From Lytechinus variegatus (taxonomy: Eukaryota; Echinodermata; Echinoidea; Temnopleuroida; Toxopneustidae), in the NCBI RefSeq assembly GCF_018143015.1, contig NC_054741.1, positions 64,020,697-64,084,696 on the forward strand: 64,000 nt of DNA. The letters run 5' to 3'. The notes under the pieces were generated by a model that saw only the letters and a list, made by a program, of their open reading frames with translations, was not told the origin of the DNA and did not search any database. The translations under genes and the position numbers were made by a program. Positions 28,891 to 52,478 of the stretch are shown here, piece after piece. Position 1 is the first letter of the stretch; each line of letters starts with the position of its first letter.

Positions 28891-30246
28891 AACAATATCA
28901 TCATCACCATCATCCTCTTCTTCCTAATCATCATCATCACTACCATACCTTCATCGTCACCATCTTTTTCTCAAACAGCATCATCTTCATCATCTTCATC
29001 ATCACCATGCATTTGTGACACAGGAGACTCAATTTCACCGATCACCTCGGCACCTATAGCCAACACAAGGGTACTACTGCTGAGGTAATTAGAGCGGGGG
29101 GGGGGGGGTCACTGGCATCATCATTCACCAACATCATCTTCATCCCGTTCAACACCACCCCTATCAATAGCAATATTTTTTTCAACATCATTGCAAAGAT
29201 ATTTATCCATATTCTAGCCAGCACTTTTCAAACTATAAGAATCAAAATGTGAAACAGGAATTCCCCTTTCGTGGTTTACAGGTATGCAGGTGTCGTTTTG
29301 CAATCACATGACTATTCATGATGAAACCAGAACACTTTCAGGTGACATGTAAACTACGTAATGTCTGTGTCAAATTAGGAGAATGTGGATTTAGGTGATA
29401 AATGTAATTGGGTTGAAATGTACATTGGATGTTCTACGTACACATCGTGAAATGGTATATTTTGAAAAATGGAAGAAATGAAAAAGAAATAAAGGAAAAA
29501 AGAAAGAATATCAAAACAACAAATAAAACTGACATATGAATAAATCTACGTCATACAAGAATGAATGTCCAATAACCATAAATATTTGTATATATGTTCT
29601 GTATTTTTATTGAAATTTGGACTCAAGATGCAGAGATCTTAAAAAGCAATATTAACAATTTATGACTAGCCATTCTTAATAATGCATTGTTATCAATGTT
29701 TTTTCCCCATGCCTAGCCAAAAATAAACATAACAATTGCTAGTACAATGGATACACGCAACAAAAAATGTGAGTGTTGAGGGGGTGGAGAGGAGTGGGGA
29801 GGCAACGACAGGGGTACCTTCGACCAAAAGTATTTGCCCTATTGCAATACAAGTTATGACATAGTAGTGTATGATCAGTTATCTCATTGAACAAACTGAC
29901 TACTTCGTGATTTATATCACTAATTACCTTTAGTGGAAGTCGTTAAGCAGGCCCAATTACCAATAAATTGACTTTTATTTCACTCATTGAAGTTAACCCA
30001 TCATTGTTGATTGAAAATCAGCTCAATGAGCTGTAAACAAACTTCATAAGACTTAGTGAACTCGTCTCTATAACTTTTCTTCACAGCTACAAGATCCAAG
30101 TCAGTGCTATCACTGCTTGATATTATCCTAGTCATCCTGTTCAATGTATTATACATATATAAAATTGCATCTTTACGGTGTTTTTGAAATGTTTATATAG
30201 AGAGATGGAATCTAATTAAAGTAATTTGGAATGAAACCAAAAAAAT

Positions 30247-30326
30247 ATATCTGAATAAGAAAATGAAAACAATTTGATATTGTATTATATCTGAATAAGA
30301 AAATGAAAACAATTTGATATTGTATT
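30247..30326. repeat. Perfect 40-bp tandem duplication
   Basis: Units 30247-30286 and 30287-30326 are identical (beginning ATATCTGAATAAGAAAATGA). Perfect identity suggests a recent event. Confidence 0.95.
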
Positions 30327-32689
30327 TAATGAGAGAGAAAAAAGTGAAAATTCATGAGTGCCAAAATGTAAATATAACAGTATTCTACCTTTTCTTGCTT
30401 CATTAAGGAATAACAAGGGAAGGTAGACATCCTGTTAATTTGACAATGGTACGTGTTTAGGGAAACCATGACAAGGTTAAGACTTCCTTTAAGAATTTCA
30501 ATTCATGGATTTTTTTTTTCAAACCACAATGATCATGAGATGTCGTTATTTCCTGTTCTCTTGAAATGCTAAAAGGAAGTTTATGACAAAGCTCACATTT
30601 CCACTGAGTAAAAAGCAAAATTTTCCTGTCATCCACTGTCATAATGAACTGTTCTTGTAGAGTGCATTATACCAATCAAAATGTCTCAATGTGTATCAGG
30701 AAAATTAAAGAAGAAAAGATGAGGGAAAGCTGATATGGTAATGCTCTGATGGGTACAGTTATCATTTCAATAAATGTTTTCAAAGCAGATTTGAATTGTC
30801 TAATTGTATAGACTTTCCTTAAAGTGTTCAGGATGTTATTCCAGAGTTCTGGCGCTTAATGCACAAACCTGTTTAGCTTTTCATATAAAACCAATACTAT
30901 GTCTTGCCCTACATATCTTTTACATAATGGCATGACAAGGCAAAAAAACTTAGTCAGCTGAGCTTTCGATTCCACGTAATATTTCAGAACACATTTAGAA
31001 TAGTGGTTTCGTGTTTTGGGTGTTTTTTTTATATAAAATGTTCATTTAATTTCATACCCAAGGCATGTAAAAGGACACAAATGGATAACATATTCAAGGA
31101 ACTGGATTACGATACTCATGTGTGTGATCTTGTAAGGACAAGTGTTCCTGCCAAAGACTTGGTTAAGAAGTCGAGCGCCCCTTTCATTAAGATGTGAAAA
31201 GTACCAGCAACTTATATTTGTATGGTGTTTCATTTGCTCCTATTTGCCATTGCAAGGAAGTATGTTACAAAGTCATGACTTCCTTCTAGCCTTATCTCAT
31301 GAAACAGACAATTGACCAAAACATGGATAATACAAATGATATCTATATCTGGCACTATTCCAAATTATCTCTCTGGAGCCAGCTTAAGCAAAAATGTTAA
31401 ATGGAATTTTAAAAAAAAATAGATCGGAGTCTAAAAATACAAAGCTCACCGTAGGGGCTATTTTCATAATTAACTAACGATTATGACACTTATTGATTTG
31501 CATTTACGTTTCCTTTTCCTCAGCCCAACATTTTGAAACACTCAATCATAAATGTTCTTCGCAAACACTTTCAAGGAGTCCTGTTTTTAACCTTTTTTGT
31601 GGCGCATGTTATGTTGACCTTGGAGTGGATAAGTTGGGAGCGCTATTCAAAATGACTATCGAGTTGTCATTTTGCATTTTTTTATCAAACCGGTACAGCA
31701 TCATTTAAAGACGCTTTAATAGAATCAATGTCACGTTTATGCTTCCCCAGAAACATAAACAATGATTTCCAATCAGAGCTTGAATAAAAATACGAGAGTA
31801 GGCAACGATAGTTTGAAATAGATATACATCAAAAGAATGATTTGAGCATGAAAAAAGGAAATGTAGACAACACTACAGACAGGTGGGCACTATAAACGCA
31901 GAGTGTTTAAAAATTTTCTACTTTTATTAATTTGCTTTCATACAATTAGCTTTTTACTATAGCTAAAGCACTAAATGGAGATAAGTGTACTATCAAAATT
32001 ATCTTCTACAAGTCTGTAACATGCCTTATATAAATCATGAGTGCAATATATGAGGATTTAAAATGAATTACAGTGTAGTGTATTAAATCATTTATGGAAC
32101 ATTCCATTACTTTTCTTGGGGGGTGTTATAAATAGTTTGCATGACCAAACAAACTGTTGTGGTCATAACTGACAGACTAGTAGAGAGGTACTGTGATGGT
32201 ATACTGTAGCTCTCCACACCACTTCAATCTGAAACTTGAGCTAGACTCGTCTCAAGACCCACTGCTGATAGCTATGTCAATTAGTGTCTGTATCTGCAGA
32301 CTAGGGAATAAACATGCCTCCCATCACCCAAGAACTTATAAAACATGGGCCTGAAGTAATGACGCAGTAAACTTCTTACGTCTTATCATAAACAATTGTT
32401 TGACGGGTCAAATATAATTGATCACACTTAACGTAATCAATTAACAAAAAAATATCATACATATAGCGTATCATTCAAAATACAATTTATTTTATTTTAC
32501 TAAGGAAATACAGAATGTATGCACAGAAAACAAATGAAAGAAACTTAAAGTGTACCAAGCATCTACATGTACAAATATAATTTCATATATTAGAACCTAT
32601 ACTTTACCTAAAAGAGCATTATCAAGCATTTTGGGGGTAATTAGATTACAAGGATGAATGAAGGACAAGTGGAATGCCTCTGGCGGTCT

Positions 32690-33185
32690 CACCTGCATCA
32701 CGCGATTCAATATAGCAGCAGTGCTGACTTTGAAAACTACTGTAACTCGCAAAAGATGTTCAGTGATACTTGGTTACTCTTATTTCCACGTTTTATGAAC
32801 TAGACCAATACACTTACAGAGATATGATGGTAATTCAACAAATACCCCCCAACGTGGCCAAAGTTCATTGACCTTACATGACCTTTGACCTTGATCATGT
32901 GACCTGAAACTTGCACAGGATGTTCAGTAATACTTGATTACTATTATGTCCAAGTTTCATGAATCAGATCCATAAACTTTCAAAGTTATGATGGTAATTC
33001 AACAGATACCCCCAATTCGGCCAAAGTTCATTGACCCTAAATGACCTTTGACCTAGGTCATGTGACATGAAACTCATGCAAGATGTTCAGCGATACTTGA
33101 TTAACCTTATGTATAAGTTTCATGAACTAGGTCCATACATTTTCTAAGTTATGATGACATTTCAAAAACTTAACCTTAGGTACTA
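32690..33185. repeat. Tandem ~160-bp repeat carrying TGACCTTTGACCT motifs
   Basis: Three diverged units share AGATGTTCAGTGATACTTG, AGTTATGATGGTAATTCAAC, CCCCCAA.GTGGCCAAAG and CATTGACC.TA.ATGACC. The two complete units each include TGACCTTTGACCT (32882-32894 and 33042-33054), followed by TCATGTGAC. The motif is two TGACCT half sites with a one-base spacer. Non-coding. Confidence 0.8.
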
Positions 33186-33188
33186 ACA

Positions 33189-33632
33189 TTGACGATTGGA
33201 TACCATGCATGACCAAAAAAACATTTTTGCTAGGAAAGCTACGTGTTCAGGGTAAAATTTGCGAGGGTGTAAAAATTAAGACTAAAATGTTCTAAAAGGA
33301 TGTACTTTTGCCCCAAGAGTCAACACTACGTGTTTAGAGTACGATCTGGGCAAGATGTGAGGTACGTGGGGCTGTACTAAACCCAATGCTGTGGGTGAAT
33401 TAGGTAGGCCGACGACCGACGTCTGTGACATAACAATAAAAATATCGCTGTACTTGTTTAGGGGGTCAATTCAGGGAACTTGCCAAGAGTATCGTTTTGT
33501 TTCCAATACATGTTAAGGGTATCGTTTCACACGCCAATACTTGTTAAGGGGTGCATTTTTAGAAACCTGAAAATACGTGTTTAGGTGCTTTTCGAGACCC
33601 CATGGTCGCGCATGGTATCCATTCGTCAATGG
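33189..33632. repeat. MITE with inverted ends near CATTGACGATTGGATACCAT
   Basis: Left CATTGACGATTGGATACCAT and right ATGGTATCCATTCGTCAATG are inverted partners (about 30 bases including GCATGACCA / TGGTCGCGC). The inside is filled with variants of TACGTGTTTAGGGT, at least six copies. No open frame. Confidence 0.75.
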
Positions 33633-33926
33633 AAGCTGCCCCCCCCCCTCCCCGGAGTTAAACATAATCCATCATGTAATAATTTTGATTTACAGGTTGT
33701 GTAGGGTCGAAATAATGCCATAAATTTGTCTCAAAACTCAGGAAAACTCTGGAAGTCATGTCAGGAGTTTTGAGGAAGAATGATCTGTGCTTGTGTGAGT
33801 ATCATCTTCATACCCTAAAATGAGAAACAAAAGAGAAGAAATGAAGTTTATTACCTTAAGTTAAGAAACATACAAATATTCTAATATCATACAATTTCTA
33901 GGCAAAGTTAAACAAAAAATACTTCA

Positions 33927-34048
33927 GGGGAGCGTTTCATGAAAGGACATGTCAGATGTTTTACCTGACAGTTACCATAGTAACAGTGCCTCTCAGCCAA
34001 TCAGAATCAAGGAAAGTTGTCACAAAAATGTTGATGACATGCTTCCCT
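33927..34048. repeat. MITE, GGGGAGCGTTTCATGAA family (third location)
   Basis: Left end GGGGAGCGTTTCATGAAAGG, internal CTCTCAGCCAATCAGAATCA, right end GATGACATGCTTCCCT; same family as 9434-9718 and 10097-10243, in opposite internal orientation. Confidence 0.7.
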
Positions 34049-34370
34049 GATCTCTGTAACACTTAGCCAAGCAATTGATGGTAGAACTCATTTTCACAAT
34101 TGATTACATTGACTACAATCAATAGAGAAAATCAATCAATACATCAGAGTCACAGGGGGTGTTGCAAGAAAATATTTGCGATCACTTGCAAATATTCTGT
34201 TGCAATTTTACAACTGATTTTACAACGTTAGCTGTAGCAAATCAGATTAAACTTCTTGTTTCAAGAAGCAAATTTGCAATTAACTGCAAGACTTGTGATT
34301 GATTCAGGGACCAAAAATAAACTTGCAATTGATCGCAAGTTTAGTTTCTTGCGACACCCTATTAGTTTTG
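34049..34370. repeat. Adjacent MITEs of the GTAACAC and GGGTGTTGCAAGAAA families (copies 2)
   Basis: 34049-34152 resembles 16673-16800 (CATTGACTACAATCAAT core). 34154-34370 resembles 16483-16636 (AGGGGGTGTTGCAAGAAAAT at left, AGTTTCTTGCGACACCCT at right). They lie just downstream of DRG1 and could be part of its 3' UTR. Confidence 0.65.
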
Positions 34371-34636
34371 TGTGTGGGACCCACATTGTTTTTTTTAATA
34401 AAAGTAGAAAATCAGAGAAACAACAATGAATGTCTGGTGAAAAAAATCAAATAAAAACAAAGTAAACAATTTTCAACTTAAATTTTGCGATGACACATGT
34501 GAGCTCCTACCCCTGGGATATAAAAATATGGTACATATCAAATCTGAATTCTATAAATTGTCATTCTGCATAAAAATTAGATAAAAATTAAATAAAATGG
34601 ACTAATTATATGATGATTTTGGCATCATTGATCTAC

Positions 34637-35888
34637 TCACTTTTTGACGATCTGTATAACATCCTCATCCTTTAGTACATGTTCTTTACCAACCTTCTGT
34701 GGGTTGTGCTTTACAGACGAGCCCCAGACTAGGGCACTGAGGAGAAAAAGAAGAGACATACATATGATAGTTTAAATTTGGCTTAAGTCAAATTGAAGTT
34801 TCTTCAAATTTATGCATGTCGTAACACATCTGCCACCAAATAGAGGATTGTTGGTTAACCATTTTTTTTCTAAAAAATACAAGATAGCACTCACCACAAA
34901 TAACTATTGATGAAATAAAGAAATATTTGATTGAAAGAATATTCTCTCTAATTTGACCTGTCGATTTTCTGTGACCCTCCACATACGCTAGTCCTTTACC
35001 TTTTTTCTATCATATTTCTAGAAAGGCAAACATTTCGTTTTCATTAACACTTTGTTAATGATTGTTTTCACCTAGTACGTTTTTGTTTTTTTACATTCTT
35101 TTTTATTCCTTCTTTTCTTTCTTTACTGGGCTGGAACATTAAAGATCCAACAGATCTTAAATGTCAGTCCAAACTCGAAGCCTGTTTTGTACATTATTTT
35201 ACTGTATTGTCATTTTTGTTAGTTTGCTTATCATTCTACCTTGCCATTATGTTATTTCTTATTTACCTGAATATATGTTATTTTAATCGAGAAATAAAAT
35301 GAAATGAATTGAATTGAACAAGATGAATACCAAATGCAGGGAAGAATAAAAATTAATCAGTAGAATAATAAGATCCCAATAAATCTGTAGTGTTTATATT
35401 ATCGTTATCACTTTGAAAGAAAAACACAGTGATTACTGCATGGTTTTGAATCTTGAGTACACTGTTTGTTGACCAATTTCTCATTATAAATTGCATATGA
35501 ATGACGTCACAATAATAGTGCAATCTGTGCACATGTATTTAAAATCCTAAAAATTTGTAAGTAGCATTTTCAGAACTCCCAATATTTCTAATGTAAAACG
35601 GGCTGAGTTTGGTCAAGATAAGGAAAGAAATTCAATTTCTCAATAGGAGTATGTAGTAAGATCGTTAAATAGGAAATAAGAAAACTGTGAAAAAGAAAAA
35701 AAAGAGCACACAATGGCTCAGAATGTTTCAGTGCAGGAGCACTGTTGAATGAATGGGTTTCTTACTGTTTAAGTTCTTTGAGGATACTCTTGTGAAGGTT
35801 GTTACAGAATTCTTCCACAGTGCAGTTTTCACTCTTGAGAACGATGGGAGCCTCATAATCTGGCAACTGACCTTTAGGCTTGGTGTAT
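34637..35888 (-). CDS. DRG1: DRG1 exons 10-11: TGS domain and C-terminus
   Basis: Exons 35888-35766 and 34736-34637 give [17 protein letters not shown], then [20 protein letters not shown] and EDVIQIVKK. This is the ubiquitin-like TGS domain that follows the G domain in all DRG proteins. The junction splits a His codon. The intron between them (34737-35765) contains a probable LINE 3' end (35100-35322). Confidence 0.95.
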
Positions 35889-38800
35889 CTGAAGAAGGGT
35901 TGAAGCAGAATAAGATTAATTTTATATGATATGGAGAAGGTAAACGGTTCACCATGTGTAATATGAAGAAGGGAAGGAAATACAGGCAGAAAGAGATCGA
36001 AATGGAAAGACGAGATAGGATGAAAAGAGAAAATTAGAAGCATTCTTTTCTTGAAAGTGAGTGAAGTCCTGAAAAGGAGCGTAAACCAGATGAGATGAGA
36101 TTATTATGACTTGAGTAGCGATGGAAGAAAAGAATACTTCTAATTTTTATCTTTTCATCCTATCTTGTCTTTCAATTTCAATCTTTCTGCCTGTATTTCC
36201 TTCTTCATATTACACCTGGTGAACCATAAACCTCCACGTTTTAAACTCCACCATGCAAACCTACAAAGATCAATTTTATGATAGCAAAATAATTCTAACA
36301 ATATATTCAGTGTTTGTATCATCTTCCTATAATACTAATTAATATAATGAAAATATTCCTGTTGTATCATCAGGTCGCATTGCATAAAAGTTATCATCTT
36401 TTCCATCCATTTGTAACTTCTATGATATTCTTGATGTTGATTAGCTTTTGAGCAATATTTCCATGGAAGATAGAAGTTACCATTCCATGTTAACACTTTC
36501 CTTATGGTAAATTCAATACAACTGACCTTGACCTCTTTCATCATCATTCACACCCTTTTTTACACAAATTCATAACATTGCAGTATCTGAAATTGGTAAT
36601 GTATCTACAAGAAATGGTAGCATTTTTACCAGGACAAAAATGTCATATGTAATTATACATGCCTCAGAGCAAGACTGACTATATAATAGTATTTTACAAG
36701 CTACACACAGGTTGATGGATGATGAAATAAACTTACATTCTTATCAGATTTAAATAATCCCAGATCTTTTCCAGAAGGTCGTCGAAGTTCCATTTATGAT
36801 GGGCAGAGATCGGCACACAATGTGGAATCTTATAGATGATATCTAATTCCTGTAGAGTTCAAATAATCAAGTAATCAAATCAAAGGTAGGTTAAGCTGAT
36901 ATAATGCTTCAAAATAGTCAAATAAGCCACACAGATGGGGAAATAATCATTAGACCCCCTCCTTTTTTTAAACTAATCTCACAAAAGGTATGGACTAATA
37001 ATTATTTCCAAAGCTGTATTCAGGAGAAATATTACAATATTCAAATTTGAATGTAAGCATTTGGGAAGGTTTCAAAATATTTCTGATAGGAATATCAAAT
37101 GATAAAATGGCTGATAGTACAACTGTTATCCAGACTTCTGAAAAGCTATCGGGCAACCAGAAGGCACGATAGCTCAGTCGGTAGAGCTGGAATTTTGCGT
37201 TCCGGTGACGCGAGTTCGATTCCCAATTGGTGCGCTAGTGCCCTTTGTTAAGGCATTTAAATCTTCATTACCCGGTCCCTCCGGAGGACCTTAAACCGTC
37301 AGCCTTCTGGTTGGTTACTTGCTTTTAGGCAATCATGCTTTCTTGGCAAAAAAAGTAAAAAAATCATTACATTTACCCCACCCCCCCTTCACCTATGCAA
37401 AAACCCCACAGATTAAAATAGTTCTTTTACAGAATGTAGTAAGACCTGAATTCCCCCAAATATGAAAATCAAGGACAAAGAATCTACAAGACCTTATGAG
37501 GTTCACTGTTTTATTGGCATGGCCTTAAGTGAGTGTTCAACACAGAGAAAAAAACATGGTTGTGTAAATAATAGTAAGGGTTCCCCAAATGCCTAAAAAA
37601 AATCAAGTTAAGGGCCCATGAACTTGTTTTGATTGAGAGAATACTCACCTCAATAGAAATTTGATCAATTTTATTGAGCACATAGATACATGGGATGTAG
37701 ACCCGGTTTCCTTCAATGATATCAATCAGATCATCAACACTAGAATCAGACCTGAAATCAAACATTATAAATCAAAATATTGAATCACTGATAATCAAGT
37801 TGGTTTGATTTTCTCCTTGAAGTTGCATTCTAGTTTCATACAGTAGACCTCAGGATCTGCTTGTGGCTCAAAGGGCAATTTTACCTCTAAAAATATTCCT
37901 TGGAAGATAAAAATTAGTCCCACATAAATTACTTCCTAGTTCAACAAAAGGTTGAAGTGAAAATGAACATAAAAATTGTCTTTATTATTCTTGAATTATA
38001 TGTCTTGCAGTGTTTGTATACACTTGTATAAATATTGTTGTAATGTCTTTGCAATTATGAAATATGGATACATCAAATCAAGTCAAATTGAATCAATTAC
38101 TATTGCACAATCACATACCATTTTTAAACAAAGACAAATAATATTTACAATTCCATAATAAACAAAGGCCATAAAAGTTGCTTGTAACAGGTAGAAGCAA
38201 TTCTTATTGCTTGTACCTGATAAATCTTATTACTGATAGTAATAATGTATGTATAATACGAGACCTGCCACCCAAAGCTAACAATAGGTCGCCTGGGAAG
38301 AATCTTTTTTAAAAGTAAAAATAATGATTTAGCTTTTGGAATGTAAAAAGTTAAAAATTAGAATATTAGCTTGCCTGAAATAGTAATTCTTCTTTGTCAA
38401 AATTTGAAGTTGTTAACTGAAATAAGAGACAAAATGTGAGGGGTTTTGACACAGTTTTATTCAGACTGACTGGAAATTTAATTGAGATTGCACTTTGTGT
38501 ACCTCTCACACTTGAGTGAACAACAAACTTCAAACATTTCTTTGAAGCTTGCTCTGGATTTCTTCTACAAGTACTTGTGATGGTTATTGTTTATCAATAT
38601 CAAGCTTGGGATGTGCTTTTTCAAACTCTATAAAAATCTCAAAATTCATATTATATTCATGTATACAAAGAGGGAGACAAGATACAGATATTAGCTCCAG
38701 AAATTCTTGATTTCCCCAAGGGGTGTTTCAGAAAGATTTAGGTCGGATTTTAAAAATTACACTTGAATTTCCCAGTTGCAAGTGGAAAATAATGCATTAC

Positions 38801-41800
38801 TGCATGGACCAGAGGCCCGTTGCAGAAAGAATTGCAATCAATCGCAACTCTAAAAATCATGCATAACTTGATATTCAACAAATCAACAGCGCACATTTGG
38901 GACTTGCGATTGATTTTTTACTTGCGTTTAAACGCAACTCTTTCTGGAATGGGCCCCTGATCACTCTCGTGGATACTCTACTGCTTATCAGTTAATGAGA
39001 TTGCACATGTGAATGTTAACACTGAACTATGACTTTCAGTCAGACCCAGCTCTTTGTGAAACACCCCCCCCCCCTTCCCTGTCTATGGTGTACCTTAGAG
39101 TGATGTCAGCATTGTGTATCTTGTACTCCGATAGGACTGTCCTCACGGTGTCTAGGTCAAGCACTGACTGAGGGCAGGTAGAGGTCAGATTGATTCCACC
39201 CTTGTCTTTCCTCTTGTATCCGATGTTTGGAGGAGCCTTGTTCAACCTGCAAATCAAACATTTTAAACCCTGTGTCAATGACAAGTTATAAGCTACTGTA
39301 ATCCTGTAATTTGATTTGTTAAGAGCAATTTATCTTTCTTTTGTATCCAATGTTTGGAGGAGCCTTGTTCAACCTGCAAATCAAACATTTTAAATATCAA
39401 TGACAAGTTATAAGCTACTGTAATCCTGCAATTTGATTGGTTAAGAGCAATTGGTCTTTTCTCTTGTATCCGATGTTTGGAGGAGCCTTGTTCAATCTGC
39501 AAATCAAACATTTTAAATATCAATGACAAGTTATAAGCTACTGTAATCCTGCAATTTGATTGGTTAAGAGCAATTGGTCTTTCCTCTTGTATCCGATGTT
39601 TGGAGGAGCCTTGTTCAATCTGCAAATCAAACATTTTAAACCCTGTATCAATGACAAGTTATAAGCTACTGTAATATTGTAATTTGATTTGTTTTAAAGA
39701 GCAATTGGTCTTTCCTCTTGTATCCGATGTTTGGAGGAGCCTTGTTCAATCTGCAAATCAAACATTTTAAATATCAATGGCAAGTTATAAGCTTCTGTAG
39801 TCCTGCAATTTGATTGGTAAAGAGCAATTGGTCTCTTCTCTTGTATCCGATGTTTGGAGGAGCCTTGTTCAATCTGCAAATCAAACATTTTAAATATCAA
39901 TGACAAGTTATAAGCTACTGTAATCCTGCAATTTCATTGGTTAAGAGCAATTGGTCTTTTCTCTTGTATCCGATGTTTGGAGGAGCCTTGTTCAATCTGC
40001 AAATCAAACATTTTAAATATCAATGACAAGTTATAAGCTACTGTAATCCTGCAATTTCATTGGTTAAGAGCAATTGGTCTTTCCTCTTGTATCCGATGTT
40101 TGGAGGAGCCTTGTTCAATCTGCAAATCAAACATTTTGAATATCAATGACAAGTTATAAGCTACTGTAATCTTGCAATTTCATTGGTTAAGAGCAATTGG
40201 TCTATCCTCTTGTATCCGATGTTTGGAGGAGCCTTGTTCAATCTGCAAATCAAACATTTTAAATATCAATGACAAGTTATAAGCTACTGTAATCTTGCAA
40301 TTTCATTGGTTAAGAGCAATTGGTCTTTCCTCTTGTATCCGATGTTTGGAGGAGCCTTGTTCAATCTGCAAATCAAACATTTTAAACCCTGTATCAATGA
40401 CAAGTTATAAGCTACTGTAATATTGTAATTTGATTTGTTTTAAAGAGCAATTGGTCTTTCCTCTTGTATCCAAAGTTTGGAGGAGCCTTGTTCAATCTGC
40501 AAATCAAACATTTTAAATATCAATGGCAAGTTATAAGCTTCTGTAGTCCTGCAATTTGATTGGTAAAGAGCAATTGGTCTCTTCTCTTGTATCCGATGTT
40601 TGGAGGAGCGTTGTTCAATCTGCAAATCAAACATTTTAAATATCAATGACAAGTTATAAGCTACTGTAATCCTGCAATTTGATTGGTTAAGAGCAATTGG
40701 TCTTTTCTCTTGTATCCGATGTTTGGAGGAGCCTTGTTCAATCTGCAAATCAAACATTTTAAATATCAATGACAAGTTATAAGCTACTGTAATCTTGCAA
40801 TTTCATTGGTTAAGAGCAATTGGTCTTTCCTCTTGTATCCGATGTTTGGAGGAGCCTTGTTCAATCTGCAAATCAAACATTTTGAATATCAATGACAAGT
40901 TATAAGCTACTGTAATCTTGCAATTTCATTGGTTAAGAGCAATTGGTCTTTCCTCTTGTATCCGATGTTTGGAGGAGCCTTGTTCAATCTGCAAATCAAA
41001 CATTTTAAATATCAATGACAAGTTATAAGCTACTGTAATCCTGCAATTTGATTGGTTAAGAGCAATTGGTCTTTCCTCTTGTATCCGATGTTTGGAGGAG
41101 CCTTGTTCAATCTGCAAATCAAACATTTTAAATATCAATGACAAGTTATAAGCTACTGTAATCCTGCAATTTGATTGGTTAAGAGCAACTGGTCTTTTCT
41201 CTTGTATCCTATGTTTGGAGGAGCCTTGTTCAACCTGCAAATCAAACATTTTAAACCCTGTATCCATGACAAGTTATAAGCTACTGTAATCCTGCAATTT
41301 CATTGGTTAAGAGCAATTGGTCTTTCCTCTTGTATCCGATGTTTGGAGGAGCCTTGTTCAACCTGCAAATCAAACATTTTAGATATCAATGACAAGTTAT
41401 AAGCTACTGTAATCCTGCAATTTGATTGGTTAAGAGCAACTGGTCTTTTCTCTTGTATCCTATGTTTGGAGGAGCCTTGTTCAACCTGCAAATCAAACAT
41501 TTTAAATATCAATGGCAAGTTCTAAGCTACTTTAATCCTGTAATTTGATTTGTTAAGAGCAATTTGTCTTTCTTTTGTATTAATTATCCATTGTTTAGAG
41601 GAGCCTTGTTCAAACTGGAAATCAAACATTAATAACATGTTTCACGAATCTGTTACATATCACTATAAGTTACAGGATTCCAGATTGGTGAAGATCAATT
41701 TTGACCTTTTTCTTCCATCCAACGTTTGGAAATAGGTTCAACAAGAATATCAAACACCTCAATGCTGTTTCATAAAGCTTACTGACATATTACTGTTATG

Positions 41801-44800
41801 AGCTCCTGAAATCCTGTAATTTGGTTGGCTCAGAGCAATTTTTGCTTTTCACTTGTATCCAATGTTTGGAGGAGCCTTGTTCAACATACAAATCAAACAT
41901 CAAAACCCTAGCCTTCGCCGTATGTGCTCCTAGGCTTTGGAATGCTCTCCCGGTTTACGTTCGTGATTCTCCAACAATTTCCACATTTAAGATTAGGTTG
42001 AAAACATACCTTTTTAATCAGTAATCTGTTTTGTTATTCCATGTATTTTTCATGCATTTTCCTTAATTTTTTGTAGTCTTTAAGTGTATATTATTCTGTA
42101 TTCTGTTACTTGTAATTTTTTGTCTATGTATCCAGCGCTTAGAAATAACGCGTATTAAGCGCTTTATAAATGTTGATTATTATTTATTTTATTTTATTTC
42201 ATGAAGATTGTTAACAATGGAAACTCATACATGCTATAGTTGAAAGCTACTGAAATCCTGCACTTTGATTGGTCAAGAGTACTTTCAGAACAGATTTCAA
42301 TTATTTGTTACAAATAAAATGTCTTTTGAAGCAGGGTCTATATTCAACAATGTTCATGGATAACCAGACATACCATTTCATGAATATATTTCAACATATT
42401 TGTAAACAACCCAAATGCTTATAGAGAAAGTTCATTTCAAACTTTATTTGGTCATCTAATTTTTTCAATTGACTTAAAATGAAAATGTGGGAAATTTACC
42501 TACATAGGTATGATCGTGAAGGGAGTATCAACTTTAATCATATATAACCCATGCTATTTTGCAAACGCATAGCCTGGGAGAGCCACAATAAATCAACATG
42601 TATAATTAATTTATCCAAAATTAGTCAAAATATGCATGAATTAGAATTCACCTTTGTGTCCTATGTCTAGGGGGCTAAATTTCCCCCACCCCCTCCAACC
42701 AAAATATATAAGGTAAGCATGATGGCTTACCTGATGCCAAAGCCTTCAAGTTCATGTTCAATGAGTTTCTTGTGCTTCAGGGGTTTGAGAACATCAAGTA
42801 CAATCAAGATCAAACTGCATGTCCTTGCCACTGGAAACAAAAAAAATACAATATGATAGTATACAAATAGCGAATAGGCATGAGTGCGATGGTGCGAGAT
42901 TTCGCATGAGGTGAAAGAAAGATGCTCTATTCAACGAGGCGTTAGCCGAGTTGAATAGAGCGTTTCTTTCTTTCACCGAATGCGAAATCTCGCACCATTG
43001 CACGAATAAGAATATTCGCTATTTGTGTTGTACAACGCCTCGGAATCTAGCGAAAATATGAAAAAAAACATGAGTTTCCCCTCCAGTAATCTATGAAAAG
43101 GGAGCAAAAATATTGAAAGCGAAAAGCAAATCCCACAAGCGCACATGATCTTGGACAGCATTGCGCATTTAGACAGCGGGATGTACGCGCATTTTACTCA
43201 ATGAAATCGCATTGTGACGTCACCTCCTAAAGCCGTGCAATGGTACATTTTGGATGGTACGTCTTGTGTGCAACGGTACGAATGTGTGACATTCAGCCTC
43301 CCATTTGATCGCGTACAGCAAGCTAAGAAGGCATTGTACAATAAGGAATTAATTGCAAGCCTCACTATTGATATGCTCTCCTTTAAAAAGGGAAAAGAAG
43401 TAAGAAAAATAATAACTTCTTGTGAAACAGTTAATAGGTCTTTCATTTACACAGACGTCCATGAACTACCACAATGGTTTATCTCGTAGAAGGATGAGAA
43501 TTGCCTAGAAGATATCTTAAATCTAAACACATTTTAAACATTATTTCAGATCATAATTATATTAATTTCATTTCCATTTAAATTCTAGCCAACATTAAAT
43601 TTTTGAATTCTACCTGAAAGATGGGGTAGGGGGACAGGGGAGCAAGACGTTGAATTGCAATACATGAGCCATCTATTATTATTATCATATTTATATTTTG
43701 TTAACTTTTGGACTCCTGTCATTTACAAACTTAAAAAAAAAGCTTTCTACAGGTGTTCCATTTTCCAATTATTTCTCTAACTTAAAAAAAATCTTAATTT
43801 GCTATGCTTATCATTTGATTTATTTTTTTGTATATACATGTACATTTCAACTGAACATATTTTGATGTTCTTAATGGGAAAGAATAAATGAATTAACACA
43901 GGATCTATATTCATGTAGGATATTCACCTGCAATAACCTGTCTTCCTCTTCCTTTACCATCTTTAGCTCCTTCAATGATACCAGGCAGATCAAGTAACTA
44001 AAACAATACGACAAAACAGATGACAATAACATCATTATAGAAGCATAATTGGGTCATTCTCAATGTCAGAGTAATCATTAAGCCTGTAGCCTCGAAATCT
44101 TGCACTATTTCTGTGACATTTGGTTGGGATAGTAACATGGATTGTGACCATGTTTGCATGATGACAAGCTTTCCCTACATAACTTGAATATGCCAAAGGA
44201 GTTTGCCATTGACAACATCGATATCCATGATAGAATTATGGGAAATACTGGGTGACTTCAAGTTAGGCATTGATTTCTGGTAATGGTGACCGTTACAAAC
44301 AACAAGTTGGAAATGTGTCTCGTGCTAAGAATCACGTTAAATGTAATTTGGTGTTGAGCTATATGTATCTCGAAAGTGACTAGTATATTTTGTAAATCAG
44401 GGGAGGGGTCACAAAAAGCTTAGAATACCTAAGAGTCATACACAAATGGTTTGCAACATGCAATCTTATTGATTAATACTCAGTAGTGCGTGTCCACTTT
44501 GCATGATTTGACCAATGCGATGATGCCTTTTATACCACACATTAATGGGAATATATGTGCGACTCCAATTCAAACTTAACTCTTTGTTAAACACCCCCCC
44601 CCCCATTTGGTGTTGGGAGTATATCCCACTCACATTCTACACCAACACCAAACTTGAAATCACTCATTGACAGCATACCTGAATCTTAGCACCCTTGTAT
44701 CTAATAACACCAGGTACTGTGGTGAGTGTAGTGAATTCGTACGCAGCTACCTCAGAGTAGACACCAGCCAAGTTACTGAGAAGGGTAGACTTGCCCACCG

Positions 44801-47800
44801 AGGGAAACCCTACCAACCGAACAAAAGAAAGAAAATTAAAATGTTAAAAGAAATAACACAAATAAACAATGTAATATTTCAGATAATGGGATAAAGAGTA
44901 AAAATGCTAAACCTTGAAAAGCACCAGTTACCGCACTGTAGTTTTTTTAAGGGTTAAAAGGGGTAGATTTTTTGTGAAAGGAAAAATCTGTACTTTAACT
45001 TAATCTAAAAGAGACATGTGTAGGAAACAAATTTTGACAAAAACCCTGTATCTTCCATTAAAAAATGCAAATCTTACCAACAAAGCCTATTCTTGCATCT
45101 CCAGTTTTGGCAACATCAAAACCTGTAGGAAAAAATTAAGAATACGGTTGAATTTTTAAAATACTAAGAGTTGCCAATGATATTGGACATAAAACAAAGC
45201 AAGCCATGTGACCTCCTGGGTAATTAGCAAGTGTGACTAAATTGCACCTAATTCCCAGTTGCTTACATAATAGGACACTGGACTCTACTGGATTTATGTT
45301 TAAGCATAAACTCACCTTCTCCTCCCCCTCCTCCTCCACCTCCTTTAGGAGTAATAAGTTCTCTTCTCAGCTTAGCAAGTTTGGCTTTCAGCATACCCAG
45401 ATGACCACTTGTCGCCTTGTTCTTCTGGGTTCTAGCCATCTGTAAATCCAAAAAAAGATATACATGTACAAGTCAAGTCCATTGTATTTTTTTTCTGAGC
45501 TGTTTTCCACTCCTCTGGGAATGGAGGACATTGTGTGCAAGCAACCAACGGTTTGAATCAAAAGAGAAGGATACAAAGAGTAAAGCGCTTTCACAATCAT
45601 ATCTATATTTATTTACTTGTTTGTTTGTAACTTCTGCTTTAGTTGTTGCTCAACTTGTTAATACTAGCACATCAATGATGTGGAGCTCATCCGGCATCTC
45701 GCAACACAATTTAACACAATTTTAATTTCAGCCCAGTTGACACTGTAGTGAATTATATTGGTGACATAAATTGAGGATATAGAATTGAAATTGATAAATA
45801 AATGACATAGAAGCATTTTTTGTGATCTATGATTAAATTTCATATGAATGAAGTATTAGTTATTATCTAGTCAAAATTTCTAAACTCTGTGTAGAACCTT
45901 GGTGAAACTAATGTAGCTCTCAGATGGAACAAAAATAACCAAAATCAATCGACAAATAAGTAGGCAATTTTTGTGAGTTTTGAAAATATATGAATAAATA
46001 GCAGAATCAATGACTTTCAAAATTCTATGTTTAAATTTTGTATCACCACCTCGAGCTATCATATAAAGCAAACAAAACTGAAATTGATCAACAAATGAAG
46101 AAAAAACATTTTTTGTTATTTATGACATACGACAGATGACGGACGACAGACGACGGACGCCACGCCACGGCATAAGCTCATCTGGCCCGAAGGGCAAGAT
46201 GAACAGGTTACGCTCACAATTTGGGTACTAACTCCTCCAATGGCCAAGACATCCCGGTTTGGGGTGGGATAAAGAATCCCAATGCAGATATGCATCCTAA
46301 AAAGGGGCTTGAAATTAAAGAAGCATATAATGATGATTTATGAAAAAAAGTGCTTTTATCACCTAATATCATTTATTAGCATATATCTTGACTACCTCAT
46401 GAAAACATGTCTTACATGTAAGTCAAAACTCCACTGTTCTTTTGAGGCACAAATTATGTTTTCCCTGAACATTTGCTGTTATAGTTCATATTGGATCGTT
46501 CCTACACCCCCTAGTTACATGTATGCCACTGTGCAAAGCGGAGCGTGAAGTCAGCAAAGTGTTGAATCTTTTTATTGTATAGACTTTGGTAGAACGTTTG
46601 TTGACAAACTGGCTTTGTTCAAGGCACATAGAATTTTCTATATTTTTGTTTCATGTGTCACCGCTTTATTATTATTATTTGTTTGGCGTCACCTGTGCCT
46701 GGGAGGCGAAAAGCGAACTGAATCACTATGACCCGTAGGTCTCTCCTCCCGATATAATTAATTGGGGGAATGCAGGTGGACCACTACACCAGGGTTTCCC
46801 CCTACTCTTATACGAATAGTGCAGTGGGTTCTTAACGTGCAAAGGTGGTGATTTTCCTCTACACGGGGCCTCAATTGAACGTCCAATCCGAGGGACGGAG
46901 TGTAACATAGCCTGCATCTATGAAACATGGGAGAGACGTTTACACACAACGCACTGGCTTCAGTCATCCACCCGGGGTGGACTCGAACCCACGATCTTTG
47001 GTTCGACGGGCAGACGCGTTACCGACTGAGCCAACACCGCTCTAAATGACTGTTTTCAAAAAAGTTTTATTGTCAGCAATAAAAATCTTCATTTGTTTTT
47101 TGAGTTATTGCATTAATTAGTGTCCATATTTCATCAAACAATCATAGGAATTGCGCATACATGTACAATGAATTTGGATAAAATACTGACGAGCTGTATA
47201 AAGGTTGTAAAATGTATTAGCACCACCAACGGCCTTCCTTTTATTTCTGTGGAAGAGACATGTATGCAAAGCCACTTTCCAGGCCGAGGTAAGCTATTTT
47301 GATTTTTTTTTATGTGCTTTTTATTATCAACAAATAATTAAAAATTTGAAAATGGATAGCCCGTCACCAAAAAGAACCCTGGTGAGTAGCAGAACACGTT
47401 TCGGCAAACATTATTCCTGTTATAAAGTGATGTTAACCAAAAACTCAAAAATCCATTGTGTAATCATGTTCTTAGTGCAAGGTTAGTATAGCATAGGGCC
47501 TACTAACCTCGCATACGTGCAGGGTGACCAGATGTCCCATATTTCCCGGGATCGTCCCGTATTTTGCTCCTTTGTCCCAGCGTCCCGACAAACCCTTCCC
47601 ACGATGAATCCAATCATAAGTGATAATGGTCCAGGAGTACTGTGAGTACCCATACATGAACATAAATAGTGTACCTATCAAACACATATAGTAAAAATCA
47701 CTCAAACCTCAATAGAAAATGGTACCCTCCTACATGTACATGTATATACCGTAAGTGGCACGATAAGTGCAGAAATACAACATTTATCTCAATAACGAAA

Positions 47801-50800
47801 GCATTTTAGGCAAGATGTACAAGAGTGAAATCCCATCAACCAAAAAACAAGCTTGATTACATAACAACTGCCTTCTTCAAAGTTGATAATGTGTCATCCT
47901 GATGATTTATTCTTGGTTTATCATGAACCTTATGTTCATATTTGCCCATCAATTCACATTCCCTTTACCATACCGCATTGTCACACTCGGGCTTCTACCA
48001 CTCTCCTCTTTGGAGGAGGCACTTGAAGGAGGTGTTATGTGGTCTTGGCATTGACATCAACTCAAACATTATTTTTGTCGCCTGATGTCATTCAAAACTT
48101 TAACTCTTTCTCCCTATCTGTATATGACAGTTTACAGGTTTACATTTCAGCATCCACAACTGATGGATTAATTTTTCCTTCTAAGAAAGGGGTATTCTCA
48201 ATAGTCACTTGCATCATCTTGCATGGTCTGGTAGCCAATGATGTCATGACTCCTTTTTCTTGAAATATTGGATAACAATATCATCCTCCTTTAATATATT
48301 AGGCATTGTCCAAATTAGACTTGGCAGCTTCAATGTCTCTTTTCACACACTGTACCAAACCACAGTTACTTGGCTGCACTTCAGACGGACTATTAGCAAA
48401 TCCTTCAGAAACTTTAATAGGGATCAAGTTCAAATCATCAAGCATTTCTCCTGAACACTGCTTGTATGTGGACCCTCGAAAGGCACTGTTCTTCAGAGCT
48501 ATGATTTTCAACAGGAATCTTGCAAGCTGCTTTTCATTGCTAATTATCATATTTGAACCAAACCATGAGTAATACATGGAAAGCCATGAGGTGAAAGATG
48601 CATAGTCAGTACCTGATTCTTGCAAAAAGCCACAGTACAGTCTGTTGGTATTACCTACAACTACAAGTCATTAGCCTTTCCTTTGCTGAGCCCTTGGATG
48701 TTACACTGAAATTTAATTCAGCATCCCCAACCATCAAATACTCCCCCTATAGCTCCATAGCTTTTCCCCAAGAGGTCCAGCTCAGTTCTAACCAGGGTAC
48801 CCCTCAAAAAAATTGTATCTAAATGAAAACATGGCAACTCACCAAAGTTGCTCAAATGCAAATTCTGTCTTGGTTGGGACTTGTTGGGACCTACATAATA
48901 ATTTACTTTATCATTTTGTTGTGTGTAATGCAAATCTGCTTTGAACCCACATCGGCCCGCTCAAGGTAGTTTGCTGGTCAGAACCCTAATTGGTATGAAT
49001 GGTGGCCATACAAAGAATGATTTTGAACCAGGCATGTAGCTACTTCAAGCAATATCCAAAATGCTCTTTCAAATCTCAGTACATTCTCACCTGAGAGGTT
49101 CTTGCAAAAAAATATTTATTTCATGTCCTCTAATACAAGCTTTGTGGCAAAAAAGGTTTATTTCATTTATTAATCAGAAGAAAAGAGTTTTTTTCTGATT
49201 TTGAAAGAATATTTGGTGTTCACCGAGATCTCTTCATACAATTTTCTACCATTAGAATATTTAATCTATAATTTCTTCAAATTTCAAAATATGATCCCTC
49301 ACCTTGCTAGCTTTAAACCTTTCTTAAAAAGTAATTGACAGAAATAACGTTGCTATAAAAAAGAACTTTGCTCATTTCCGTAAATGGAGACATACCTTTA
49401 TGACTTGAACCATCACCAACTCTTTATGCACTGTAAATACAGTCCGACCTCTCTTATCCGGCCTCCCCTTATCCGGATCTCTCTATTATCCGGACGCACA
49501 CTTGCCGAGATTTTTTTTTTTTAATCTAGTACAGGTACGTGAGGAAATGAGATTTCAATCTAAACTCAATCCTATACATAAACCCACTCTGATTACATAT
49601 ATTTCCCAACATAGTCACCCTACACCAAACATATTTTTCATGAAAATATCTCACCCAAATCACCAAAAGAACTTTAGGAATGATAATTTCCAGTAAATCA
49701 GGGTGCAGCGCAAACATTTCATCACGTTTCTCTTTTTGATTCGCGGGAAAAACAACACATGTCTTGCTAGCTAACTTTAGGCCTCAATACGGACAGCGCC
49801 ATCTATCATGTTTGAGCCTACAGTCAGTGGAACAATGGCTGACATTGCGAAGCTGCGATACCCGCCGCGATGATCTCATTTTAAAACTTGGTTTCATCGA
49901 GTCATTCACTTTCTTTCGAAGTATGCTCGATGTATACCTCAGTCATTTTAGCAGGTAAATTATCCAAGAGTTTTGGCCATCGATCGATTTCATTTCAATA
50001 AAAAACACTGCCTATAATTTGCACTGACTCTGCAGTGAATATTGTCTTTACCGTACGCCCACTACAATAGTGCAGTGTATATGTAGCTACCGCCGGTGGC
50101 CTGGGGAGGCAGCCGGCAGCGCAGCTGCGTGTATTTAATATTGGGTCTCCCAGATCCGGATAAATCCCTTATCCGGATTGGTGCTGGTCCCAACGTGTCC
50201 GGATAAGAGAGGTCGGACTGTATGTTCATAACTATGTATATCATACTGGTTTTCCTCTCGATATATTGCAATTTTGTGTTGATTATGTTGTTATGATAGT
50301 CTCAGTACATCATCAAAATTAAGAATTAGGACTCTGAGTCTTCACACCAATGGAAAGTTGTCAGGATTTTTTAAACCAAGGCGACCACGGAGAGGAAAGA
50401 AAATATATGAACTCAATGTCAAATTCAATATTTCCATTGATAGGGTTGAAGTTGGGAAAATGGAAAAAAATATTAGCCTTACATCGGCCTAAATGATGTC
50501 AGGAACAACATTTTGACTCCATCTCTGAATTTGAAAAAAGCAGTAAACTGCTTCAAAAATTATTCAATGTCCTTTTTTATACACAATATGAGACCGTGAG
50601 TTGACACGACATTGTGAGTGACACAACACAACTTTAACAGTTAATTTTAGCTTAACATTTAAAACACATTCAAGCAAGGTACTTTATATGCAATAAGGTA
50701 TGGGAAAACTGTATTTGCTCCTGTTCTGGGATAAATTAATTTTCAGAATACACGGCTCTAGAAAACTTTTTGTCTTTAAAACGTGAGTGACACGACAACC

Positions 50801-52478
50801 AGTTTTGAAAACTTTAAAGATCTACTTTTTTTCAGAAAAACACTTCAGATAATTTTTTTTTGTTATTTAGGAGTTAGATAGAATACAGAGTTTGTATCTT
50901 GCCAACAAATATGCTTCCAATACAAATTTTATATTGTGATAGGCAAAATGTGAATTTTAATGCAAAAATCAACATGTTGGAACATTAAATTTCACTTGCA
51001 CTAAATTTGCTGTATTTCAAGACACAATGAGTAATTTTATGTAACTGAAATGGAAAAACATACTTTAAGATGTCTAGTTTCAAAAGCCATTGAAGCCTAC
51101 TGATCTCTAGCAAGTTTTAATTTTCACCCCCATGTCCACTTTTGTTTGAAAATGACCAATTATATTATGGATTCTCAGATTACTGATTTGGAGATGTAAT
51201 CAGAGGAACAAGTTATTGAGTTTTTATAACTAGATCTAGTTGTTTCAGCTTTTATTTTGAGTCTTGTTGTGTGTATGATGTATGAAATAACCACCAAATA
51301 CAATGATTTTTTCTAAATGATTGGATTGTTTTTGTTTGCTTGAAGTTTAAACTTTTTTCCTTTTTCTTTCTTTTCTATCCTTCTTCCTTTTCTATCTTTT
51401 TTTCTTCATCCTTCTTGCTTCCCTTTTTTGTTCCATCTATCTTTATTTCCTATTTTTCTTTCCTGATCATTTCTCTCTTTGTTCATTTTTTTTCTTTCTT
51501 TCCTTCTTTCTTTTAGTCTTACCTGCCTTCTTTATTAAAATTTCTTTTTTAAAAGTTTTTTTCATTCTTTCTTTCCTTAATCTTTTCTTTGCTTCCTTTC
51601 TTTTTCTTTTCGTTCTTGTCTCCTTCCAACATTTTCTTTTTTCATTCTTTCCTCCCTCTATTTTTTCTTAATTTTTTTTCTTCCTCTCCTTTATTTTGTC
51701 TTTCACACATTTATTCATCTTCCCTTCCTTTCTATATTCAATTCAAAGAATGACAAAAACCTTTGTTGTTGACTGTTGTTGTTATTTTAGCTTATACGGT
51801 GTGTCATTCAGTAGTGAATGTTTGTGCAAGCATAATTTGCGGCAATTTTATTTTTATCTCTCTCTTATTCTTTCTTTCATCCTTCTTTTATTCTAATTTT
51901 CTTTTATTTTTTTTTCTTTCATTTCCACCTTAATTTTTTCTTTCTTTCTTCTCAATTGATCCTTTTCTATCTCTCCTTCATTCTTTCGTTCACCCTCCTG
52001 GTCACCCTGATATGTGTGAGTGGCAGACTCCCAGCTCCCACACAGTCCACCTCAAAATCAAATACAAATTCAGTCCCCTTTGGGCTTCGGCCTTACATTA
52101 TTACAGACTGTACAGTATTTATAATTTAGTAACGCGTAGATCTAAATCAGCAAGCACAAACACATTGACACACACAAGAGAGGTGAACAAATTATTAGGC
52201 CATCGTTTTTTGCCTGAACTGCCCATTTTGCCTTGAAAGACATGGTCTAACTTGTTACACATTTACCTCAGGCTCACTTTCACATCACATTCACACAATG
52301 CAGTGTCACATTGCTTGTGCAAGCTACAAAAAAGTAAACGGATGGGACCATGTAATAGAATGAATGAATTTGCACCAGTCTTCCGTCTTTTAGTATAAAG
52401 TACGGGCGCAACTGAGAGAAATCGGATTCAATCACAAACCTCTGCCTCTATTTCAGCAATCCTTTCCAGAATCCCCAT
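34637..52478 (-). CDS. DRG1: Developmentally regulated GTP-binding protein 1, complete, 11 coding exons
   Basis: Conserved cytoplasmic GTPase of the OBG-HflX family that acts with DFRP1/ZC3H15 on translating ribosomes. Coding exons on the - strand in order: 52478-52440, 45439-45316, 45122-45078, 44809-44679, 43997-43928, 42830-42731, 39246-39094, 37751-37649, 36849-36737, 35888-35766, 34736-34637 (stop at 34639-34637). All introns are GT-AG; exon lengths sum to 1101 bases, 366 residues against 367 in human DRG1. Residues: helical N-terminus with [11 protein letters not shown]1 70-77 (GFPSVGKS), Gly/Glu linker of eight Gly, switch [12 protein letters not shown]3 DLPG 116-119, S5D2L insert with KPPNIG-like [19 protein letters not shown]4 NKID 247-250, G5 SAH 270-272, C-terminal TGS domain (~293-366) ending [12 protein letters not shown]1 rather than DRG2 is clear from these strings. 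Introns hold abundant repeats, including an array of decoy acceptors in intron 6. Confidence 0.97.
35100..35322 (+). mobile_element. Probable truncated LINE 3' end
   Basis: The stretch ends in AATAAAATGAAATGAATTGAATTGAAC, described here by its short-word tail of TGAAAT/TGAATTG repeats, and starts after a pyrimidine-rich run. The shape (non-coding 3' UTR plus short-repeat tail) matches 5'-truncated non-LTR elements; no reverse transcriptase residue is left, so the family is unknown. Confidence 0.4.
35944..36232. repeat. Inverted repeat with ~100-bp arms in DRG1 intron 9
   Basis: 35944-36046 and the complement of 36133-36232 are closely similar: GGTTCACCATGTGTAATATG against GGTTCACCAGGTGTAATATG, AAATACAGGCAGAAAGA in both, GATAGGATGAAAAGA in both. 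The spacer is ~85 bases. The arms show no TIR or duplication signature of a known family. Confidence 0.85.
37161..37358 (+). mobile_element. tRNA-headed SINE, family C (copy 2)
   Basis: Head GATAGCTCAGTCGGTAGAGC (A box) and GAGTTCGATTCCC (B box) with tRNA spacing, then a body with GTGCCCTTTGTTAAGG and CCGGAGGACCTTAAACCG, and a 3' tail CTTTCTTGGCAAAAAAAG. Matches 28711-28890 on the other strand. In DRG1 intron 8. Confidence 0.85.
38812..38958. repeat. Foldback MITE, GGGCCCGTTGCAGAAAG family (copy 2)
   Basis: Left AGGCCCGTTGCAGAAAGAAT and right AACTCTTTCTGGAATGGGCC are inverted partners. Internal ACTTGCGATTGA and CGTTTAAACG. Same family as 1897-2038. In DRG1 intron 7. Confidence 0.8.
39094..39246 (-). 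CDS. DRG1: DRG1 exon 7 (true exon at the end of the decoy array)
   Basis: Encodes residues 171-220, [20 protein letters not shown] through HNADITL, part of the S5D2L insert. The acceptor TTTGATTTGCAG lies at 39258-39247 and the donor AG|GTACACC at 39094/39093. It is the only one of ~21 near-identical acceptor copies that is followed by a full exon and a donor. Confidence 0.95.
39247..41880 (-). repeat. Tandem array of ~20 units duplicating the DRG1 exon 7 acceptor
   Basis: Units of about 122 bases (spacing 121-130) run from the true exon 7 acceptor up to ~41518, with degenerate units to ~41880. Read on the transcribed (-) strand each unit contains ~80 bases of intron ending in AATGTTTGATTTGCAG, then the first ~42 bases of exon 7 (TTGAACAAGGCTCCTCCAAA onward through AAGAGGAAAGA), then non-exonic CCAATTGCTCTTAACCAATC. 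No unit has a donor after its exon fragment. Most internal units have A rather than G directly after the AG. Variation among units is a few bases, so the array is young or homogenised. It fills most of DRG1 intron 6 (39247-42730). Confidence 0.93.
41893..42200 (+). mobile_element. 5'-truncated LINE, 3' end with C-terminal ORF2 peptide
   Basis: The + strand encodes [20 protein letters not shown] followed by [18 protein letters not shown] and a stop at 42022-42024, the typical C-terminal tail of many non-LTR retrotransposon ORF2 proteins. The 3' UTR follows with AGCGCTTAGAAATAACGCG / TAAGCGCTTTATAAATG and an ATTTTATTTT tail near 42180-42200. It is inserted at the far end of the decoy array in DRG1 intron 6. 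It is heavily 5'-truncated. Confidence 0.75.
42863..43027. repeat. 165-bp near-perfect hairpin in DRG1 intron 5
   Basis: Arms ACAAATAGCGAATA...GGTGCGAGATTTCGCAT...GGTGAAAGAAAG...CTCTATTCAAC and their complement meet at a ~14-base tip (GAGGCGTTAGCCGA). The arms pair over ~75 bases with few mismatches. The outer edge is ~33 bases upstream of the exon 6 acceptor. Confidence 0.9.
43214..43489 (+). CDS. Unassigned 91-codon open frame in DRG1 intron 5
   Basis: Open from [17 protein letters not shown] to HELPQWFIS on the + strand, antisense to DRG1. The composition looks protein-like but I recognise no domain. It adjoins the hairpin 42863-43027 and could be a fragment of a mobile element or chance. 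No start-context or promoter evidence. Confidence 0.2.
   Translation: MTSPPKAVQWYILDGTSCVQRYECVTFSLPFDRVQQAKKALYNKELIASLTIDMLSFKKGKEVRKIITSCETVNRSFIYTDVHELPQWFIS
44250..44665. repeat. MITE with ends near GGGTGACTTCAAGTT (copy 2)
   Basis: Left GGGTGACTTCAAGTTAGGCA and right ACCAAACTTGAAATCACTC pair as inverted repeats; relative of 14073-14311. On the DRG1 transcript it begins 13 bases after the 5' splice site of exon 4. Its middle is enlarged by an unidentified segment with a C-run near 44594. Confidence 0.7.
44679..45439 (-). CDS. DRG1: DRG1 exons 2-4: N-terminal region, Gly linker, P-loop and switch
   Basis: Exon 2 (45439-45316) starts with the conserved [10 protein letters not shown] and ends in an eight-glycine run. 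Exon 3 (45122-45078) is 45 bases. Exon 4 (44809-44679) carries [10 protein letters not shown] and [20 protein letters not shown]. The Met at 45439 is internal in human DRG1; the upstream 13 codons are supplied by the distant exon 1. Confidence 0.96.
45775..46216. repeat. Repeat with GACGGACGACA tract and GGCCCGAAGGGC hairpin
   Basis: A ~50-base segment is present twice (GAATTGAAATTGATAAA near 45783; AACTGAAATTGATCAAC near 46076, both followed by CATTTTTTGT). The right end has GATGACGGACGACAGACGAC and the hairpin CTCATCTGGCCCGAAGGGCAAGATGA, given here as its core GGCCCGAAGGGC. Non-coding interspersed repeat in DRG1 intron 1. Confidence 0.6.
46664..47043 (-). mobile_element. tRNA-headed SINE, family D
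   Basis: The - strand begins with GGTGTTGGCTCAGTCGGTAA and B box GGGTTCGAGTCCACC, then a ~300-base body with CCAGTGCGTTGTGTGTAAAC running down to ~46664, where a TTATTATTATT tail is seen. Larger than families A-C. In DRG1 intron 1. Confidence 0.75.
48299..48625 (-). CDS. Unassigned 108-codon protein-like open frame
   Basis: Reads [20 protein letters not shown] to [14 protein letters not shown]; the frame is preceded on the - strand by [11 protein letters not shown], possibly after a TTGTAG|GTAATACC junction. The composition is that of a folded protein, but I recognise no family. It is on the same strand as DRG1 and inside the candidate hAT-like element, so a transposase or captured exon fragment is possible. 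Confidence 0.3.
   Translation of the reverse strand: MQESGTDYASFTSWLSMYYSWFGSNMIISNEKQLARFLLKIIALKNSAFRGSTYKQCSGEMLDDLNLIPIKVSEGFANSPSEVQPSNCGLVQCVKRDIEAAKSNLDNA
49440..50220. mobile_element. Non-autonomous pogo/Tigger-like element with TA duplication
   Basis: Ends CAGTCCGACCTCTCTTATCC and its exact inverse are flanked by TA on both sides (49438-49439, 50221-50222). Additional TTATCCGGA words repeat inside both ends. TA duplication and CAGT-start ends fit the Tc1/mariner-pogo superfamily. Length 781 bp; no transposase. In DRG1 intron 1. Confidence 0.85.
51340..52000. repeat. Long pyrimidine-rich tract (TTTC/TTCC), interrupted
   Basis: Three blocks of T/C-rich DNA (51345-51770, 51850-51910, 51910-51995) with TTTCTTTCTTTCC words. 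The DRG1 transcript copy is purine-rich. Confidence 0.9.
52440..52478 (-). CDS. DRG1: DRG1 exon 1 (13 codons)
   Basis: ATG at 52478 gives [13 protein letters not shown], matching the vertebrate N-terminus (..LAKIAEIEAE) immediately before MARTQKNK, and a GT donor (GTTTGT) follows at 52439. It joins exon 2 in frame. The intron is 7.0 kb, by far the longest of the gene. Confidence 0.9.

Follow-up and report, generated by a model that had tools for sequence, protein, structure and literature searches.

How can one acceptor be used correctly when the boundary that it belongs to is repeated many times over in the intron before it? The question is raised by intron 6 of a DRG1 gene in the window (the whole stretch of DNA that was analysed, 64,000 nucleotides), where a sequence-only reading had noticed about twenty tandem units of ~122 bp in front of exon 7, each repeating the acceptor and the start of the exon. 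We consider it probable that this array is a boundary minisatellite of the kind named 'mirage' in amphioxus, that it is neutral and is tolerated rather than selected, and that the normal exon 7 is still made.

The gene model leaves little doubt about the host gene. The product encoded by the joined CDS of exons 2–11 can be aligned over all of its residues 1–353 with Ribosome-interacting GTPase 1 (4a9a; E=2.6e-159), and fits Ribosome-interacting GTPase 2 more poorly (E=9e-115); its residues 273–353 also match 2eki, a solved fragment that bears the name Developmentally-regulated GTP-binding protein 1. Pfam finds MMR_HSR1, the MMR_HSR1 C-terminal extension and TGS in the same product. A tentative coding exon 1 was located with a search motif from the N terminus of human DRG1, and when it is included in the model the exon downstream of the array is exon 7. 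Thus both the name of the gene and the number of the exon given by the sequence-only reading are upheld, and the gene model likewise confirms 42731 as the end of exon 6. With 3484 nt, intron 6 is the longest of the nine introns tabulated (intron 1 is not among them), and intron 1 would be far longer than intron 6 if the tentative exon 1 is correct. Two other repeats lie near the coding sequence. At 42863–43026 on the minus strand there is an inverted repeat that is 81% identical to its own complement in a 168-column alignment and ends ~32 nt before exon 6; it resembles a small palindromic transposable element beside the exon-6 acceptor. A separate tandem repeat at 32753–33156, with a period of 163 and 2.5 copies, lies beyond the stop codon of DRG1.

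A single array, at 39204–41630, is returned by Tandem Repeats Finder, with a period of 123, 19.5 copies, 93% matches and a score of 4041, and because of this score and copy number a chance origin is excluded. When the boundary sequence was used for scanning, 23 matches were obtained, namely 21 decoy copies of the intron-6/exon-7 boundary, in tandem upstream of the real exon 7, the real boundary itself, and an isolated weak match at 42698, which was left out of the decoy count. The exon-like starts of the decoys run from 41885 down to 39373, and the unit is 123 bp long in 14 decoys and 127–140 bp in the remaining seven, so the number and length of units first noticed were close to what both methods give; moreover, the scan places all units on the minus strand, as DRG1, which bears out the claim of sense orientation. 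The repeated segment is the last ~80 nt of intron 6 with its acceptor, together with the first 43 nt of exon 7. A remnant of the unit spacer lies apart from copy 1 (Table 1), and therefore the old array extended past the limits that were first assigned to it. An exact-pattern search with the DNA of the acceptor and the start of the exon had no match in genome_contigs and none in viral_contigs, as expected for animal DNA, and Rfam gave no match at gathering scores over 30000–48000.

Table 1. Positions of the DRG1 gene, the boundary array and its parts, numbered from the first letter of the window
Feature	Position	Strand	Remarks
DRG1 exons 2–11	34637..45439	-	1062 nt of joined CDS without a break before the stop codon; product of 353 aa
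Tentative DRG1 coding exon 1 (13 residues)	52440..52478	-	motif search
DRG1 exon 6	42731..42830	-	gene model; donor CAG/gtaagc (slash marks the splice point)
Isolated unit-spacer remnant	42238..42283	-	nhmmer E=1.5e-7 in the window; other sequence between remnant and copy 1
Decoy copies 1 and 2, decayed	41615..41885	-	AG gone from both
Decoy copy 3, diverged	41486..41614	-	acceptor TTTGATTTCCAG kept; in-frame stop within the exon-like part
Homogenised array, decoy copies 4–21 (18 copies, 123–131 bp)	39247..41485	-	each ~43 nt of exon 7 start and ~80–88 nt of intron end with acceptor
Higher-order repeat	39620..41111	-	six-unit block 41111–40366, then near-copy 40365–39620; 746 bp each, 8 differences
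Real DRG1 exon 7, 153 nt	39094..39246	-	gene model and translation; nt 1–43 are the part found in the repeats; acceptor ...TTTGATTTGCAG/GTTG, donor AAG/gtacac

The copies themselves record how the array has turned over. The two blocks of the higher-order repeat are copies 7–12 and copies 13–18, and copy 19 does not differ from copy 7, nor copy 20 from copy 10. By pairwise differences the edge copies 1–3 and 21 are among the most diverged and the interior is homogenised, with the exception of the internal pair 12/18, which is as far from the remaining copies as edge copy 21 is. Judged from these comparisons, the array has turned over as a minisatellite does when its edges are excluded, the pattern that PMC3087553 describes for the amphioxus globin gene BflGb6. 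Such an array would have originated in a tandem duplication across the intron–exon boundary and would presumably have grown by unequal exchange. Elsewhere in the window, a stretch at 228–269 on the minus strand resembles the unit spacer (E=0.00038), which hints, though suggestively only, that a dispersed repeat may have been the origin of the spacer.

Most decoys retain an acceptor that is hardly distinguishable from the real one. The AG is kept in 19 of the 21 (it is lost in copies 1 and 2), the motif TGTTTGATTTGCAG in 18, and 15 are identical to the real acceptor at all 20 intronic positions upstream of the exon, with one difference among these positions in copies 5, 9 and 15. When the 215 AG sites of intron 6 were scored with a matrix, three beat the real acceptor, decoy copy 3 being one of them. 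As a separate observation, the exon 8 acceptor (37752–37772, minus strand) can be aligned with the array unit in 22 columns that contain one mismatch and one gap; this score was reached by none of 1000 shuffles, and none of the eight other acceptors besides exon 7 stands out in this way. The codon split between exon 6 and the decoy is AG/A in 14 and AG/G in 4 of copies 4–21, both of which encode Arg, in agreement with the earlier claim that splicing to a decoy keeps the frame through the exon fragment. Joining exon 6 to any of the 21 decoys leads to a stop at codon 11–34, and at codon 28 in 13 cases, so the early stop that had been put at ~25 codons is real for every copy; copies 1 and 2, from which the AG is gone, offer no acceptor for such a junction. 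If an exon began at decoy 21, 20 or 19 and ended at the real donor, its length would be 280, 403 or 526 nt, respectively, and hence exon definition alone would not rule out the nearest decoys. Hiding of the acceptor by RNA structure was checked by folding a single unit length (copy 7), which was not more stable than shuffled sequences (z=+1.22, with 183 of 200 shuffles folding at least as well).

Much of what sets the real boundary apart would be found downstream of it. The sequence-only reading held that a downstream donor exists for the last copy alone, and this stands for copies 4–21 when the 80 GT sites of the array are scored with a 5′-splice-site matrix, the best GT in these copies reaching −3.39 compared with 0.04 for the real exon-7 donor. 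Evidence against it comes from copy 1, in which GT sites at 41757 (0.42) and 41782 (0.18) outscore the real donor, although both are upstream of every decoy that still has its AG; U1 duplex energy also speaks against it, since CAG/GTTGAA at the start of copies 4, 5, 6 and 21 has −5.6 kcal/mol and thus ties with the real exon-7 donor. The exon itself is weakly marked by the matrices, with the lowest-scoring acceptor among 10 and the lowest-scoring donor among 9, the other eight real DRG1 donors scoring 1.3–8.34 on the donor matrix. By U1 energy its donor is only the third weakest of the nine real internal donors, those of exons 9 and 10 being weaker at −4.9 and −4.5. Even so, the remainder of exon 7 stands behind the real copy alone, with its donor at the end of the 153 nt, and for this reason the normal exon 7 would still be produced. 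Any leak to a decoy would run into the early stop, and such mRNA would probably be cleared by nonsense-mediated decay. The close presence of a fair donor behind the real exon 7 alone is most likely why a neutral array could be tolerated here, and the open CDS of exons 2–11 fits such tolerance.

The sequence-only reading had left undecided whether the decoys are a dosage device or a neutral expansion, and comparison of the copies speaks mainly for the latter. Among copies 4–21 the exon-like part has a pairwise diversity of 0.047 and the spacer one of 0.053 (p=0.41), and among all 21 copies the values are 0.103 and 0.115 (p=0.32), alignment columns absent from copy 7 (insertions) being omitted throughout. 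In the last 20 intronic nt, diversity is 0.016 against 0.053 in the spacer for copies 4–21 (p=0.10), and 0.056 against 0.115 for all copies (p=0.018, uncorrected for several comparisons). Two AG losses are seen where 2.4 are expected from the divergence of the spacer (P of 2 or fewer, 0.56). The exon-like variants in copies 4–21, counted without copies 1–3 and the end of copy 21 past its one-base deletion, are four silent and four amino-acid-changing, where 24% silent would be expected (p=0.11). All of these selection tests are weak because the units share ancestry. Overall the copies give no convincing sign that the decoys are maintained for function, though the lower diversity of the acceptor could leave room for weak constraint. 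Neutral expansion fits best, with AG losses near expectation and exon-like part and spacer similarly diverse; the dosage device has little in its favour, as the exon-like part is without significant constraint and acceptors are lost at about the neutral rate, even if the acceptor columns are somewhat less variable.

A working role for the decoys nevertheless has to be weighed. U2AF and SR proteins might load on them, slow or divert intron-6 splicing and so set the level of DRG1, as with the decoy exons of OGT intron 4, for which the available text describes splice sites within the intron that are rarely used yet recognised, U2AF binding to decoy 3′ splice sites, and promotion of intron retention by the decoys. 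The exact copying of the acceptor in 15 decoys would suit such a device, as would the stop reached from every decoy, the low matrix scores of exon 7, the less variable acceptor columns (p=0.018 for all 21 copies), and a purine-rich stretch of the real exon (14 of 17 purines) that is repeated in most decoys. However, the OGT decoys need weak 5′ splice sites of their own according to that text, and copies 4–21 are without a fair one on the matrix, though this is less clear by U1 energy; OGT intron 4 has a single pseudo-exon, weak at both its 5′ and its 3′ site, for which a regulatory role has been shown, whereas the DRG1 array has many acceptors and a putative role. The rank of the exon-7 donor by U1 energy, the loss of the acceptor from the old copies 1 and 2 and the lack of significant constraint on the exon-like part also speak against such a device, which we regard as unlikely. 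Slightly less likely still is a tunable form of it, in which copy number would set both the amount of U2AF drawn into intron 6 and the leak from the last decoys to extended exons that contain stops, so that variation in repeat number would set the dose of DRG1.

The array could also assist the real exon rather than compete with it, as multiplied weak acceptors and purine-rich stretches would raise local factor binding and aid recognition of exon 7, the units multiplying exactly the 3′ signals of an exon whose matrix scores are the lowest among the exons scored; there is no clear constraint in the AG-loss and exon-like diversity tests, and we find this very improbable. The copy number comes from one sequence, and an assembly error in it is possible. 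Inflation by repeat misassembly or mixing of haplotypes would agree with 746-bp blocks that differ at just 8 positions and with the identity of some unit pairs, and according to the authors haplotype 1 of the BflGb6 mirage was apparently misassembled in the draft genome (PMC3087553). Yet the graded series of diverged copies (1, 2, 3 and 21) and the remnant at 42238–42283 would be hard to produce by misassembly, and we think it improbable that the array is an artefact of this kind. The neutral boundary minisatellite remains our preferred explanation.

The sequence-only reading knew of no described case like this array, but amphioxus 'mirages' are tandem repeats of intron–exon boundaries that include the acceptor and the start of the exon (PMC3087553, PMC3902484). 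As the available text of PMC3087553 reports, tandem duplications of intron end and exon start occur in BflGb6, with 6 and 3 units of 150–160 bp in two haplotypes, and boundary repeats had been reported earlier in amphioxus Adh3 and termed 'mirages'. Many of their units keep AG/GT signals, the interior is homogenised with the cluster boundary excluded, Adh3 data together with globin RT-PCR suggest that regular splicing is undisturbed, and it was proposed that new introns may arise from mirages (PMC3087553). Further amphioxus mirages are given in PMC3902484 for TnC and PGBD5. The DRG1 array resembles the mirages of Adh3, BflGb6, BflGb9, TnC and PGBD5 in its minisatellite-like tandem units over the intron–exon boundary, its homogenised interior and its many retained splice signals. 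It differs in size, having 21 copies, mostly of 123 bp and 18 of them with the full acceptor motif, compared with the 3–6 units of BflGb6. For the amphioxus mirages, splicing and length instability have been examined, whereas the DRG1 array is known from one DNA sequence alone.

Other repeats with splice signals are less close. The IFI6 / 6-16 minisatellite (Turri 1995) reportedly gives a transcript more than one splice site; going by the title of that paper, these are donors, whereas the DRG1 array multiplies acceptors. In the Rogers model of intron gain by tandem duplication, segments with splice signals are likewise duplicated, but no new intron is evident in DRG1, all copies being within an existing intron. 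The accessible part of a C. elegans minisatellite study ties minisatellite motifs to alternative splicing and not to repeated boundaries, and the accessible part of the amphioxus huntingtin paper has no mention of mirages. The mirage cases described in the available texts are from cephalochordates, and among the literature matches listed (titles and abstract starts, with most subscription papers outside this scope) there was no boundary array of such structure in an echinoderm.

Hence the DRG1 array looks like a large further example of mirages and not like a new principle, and it would indicate that one gene can carry a far larger mirage than that of BflGb6. It is moreover a natural test of how the spliceosome selects one acceptor among many near-identical ones, and since the 20 nt of the real acceptor recur unchanged in 15 decoys, much of the difference lies in the downstream sequence. 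Should the host lie outside the cephalochordates, mirages would be more widespread in animal genomes than the amphioxus cases in the published texts available suggest, and if it is an echinoderm, they would reach beyond cephalochordates.
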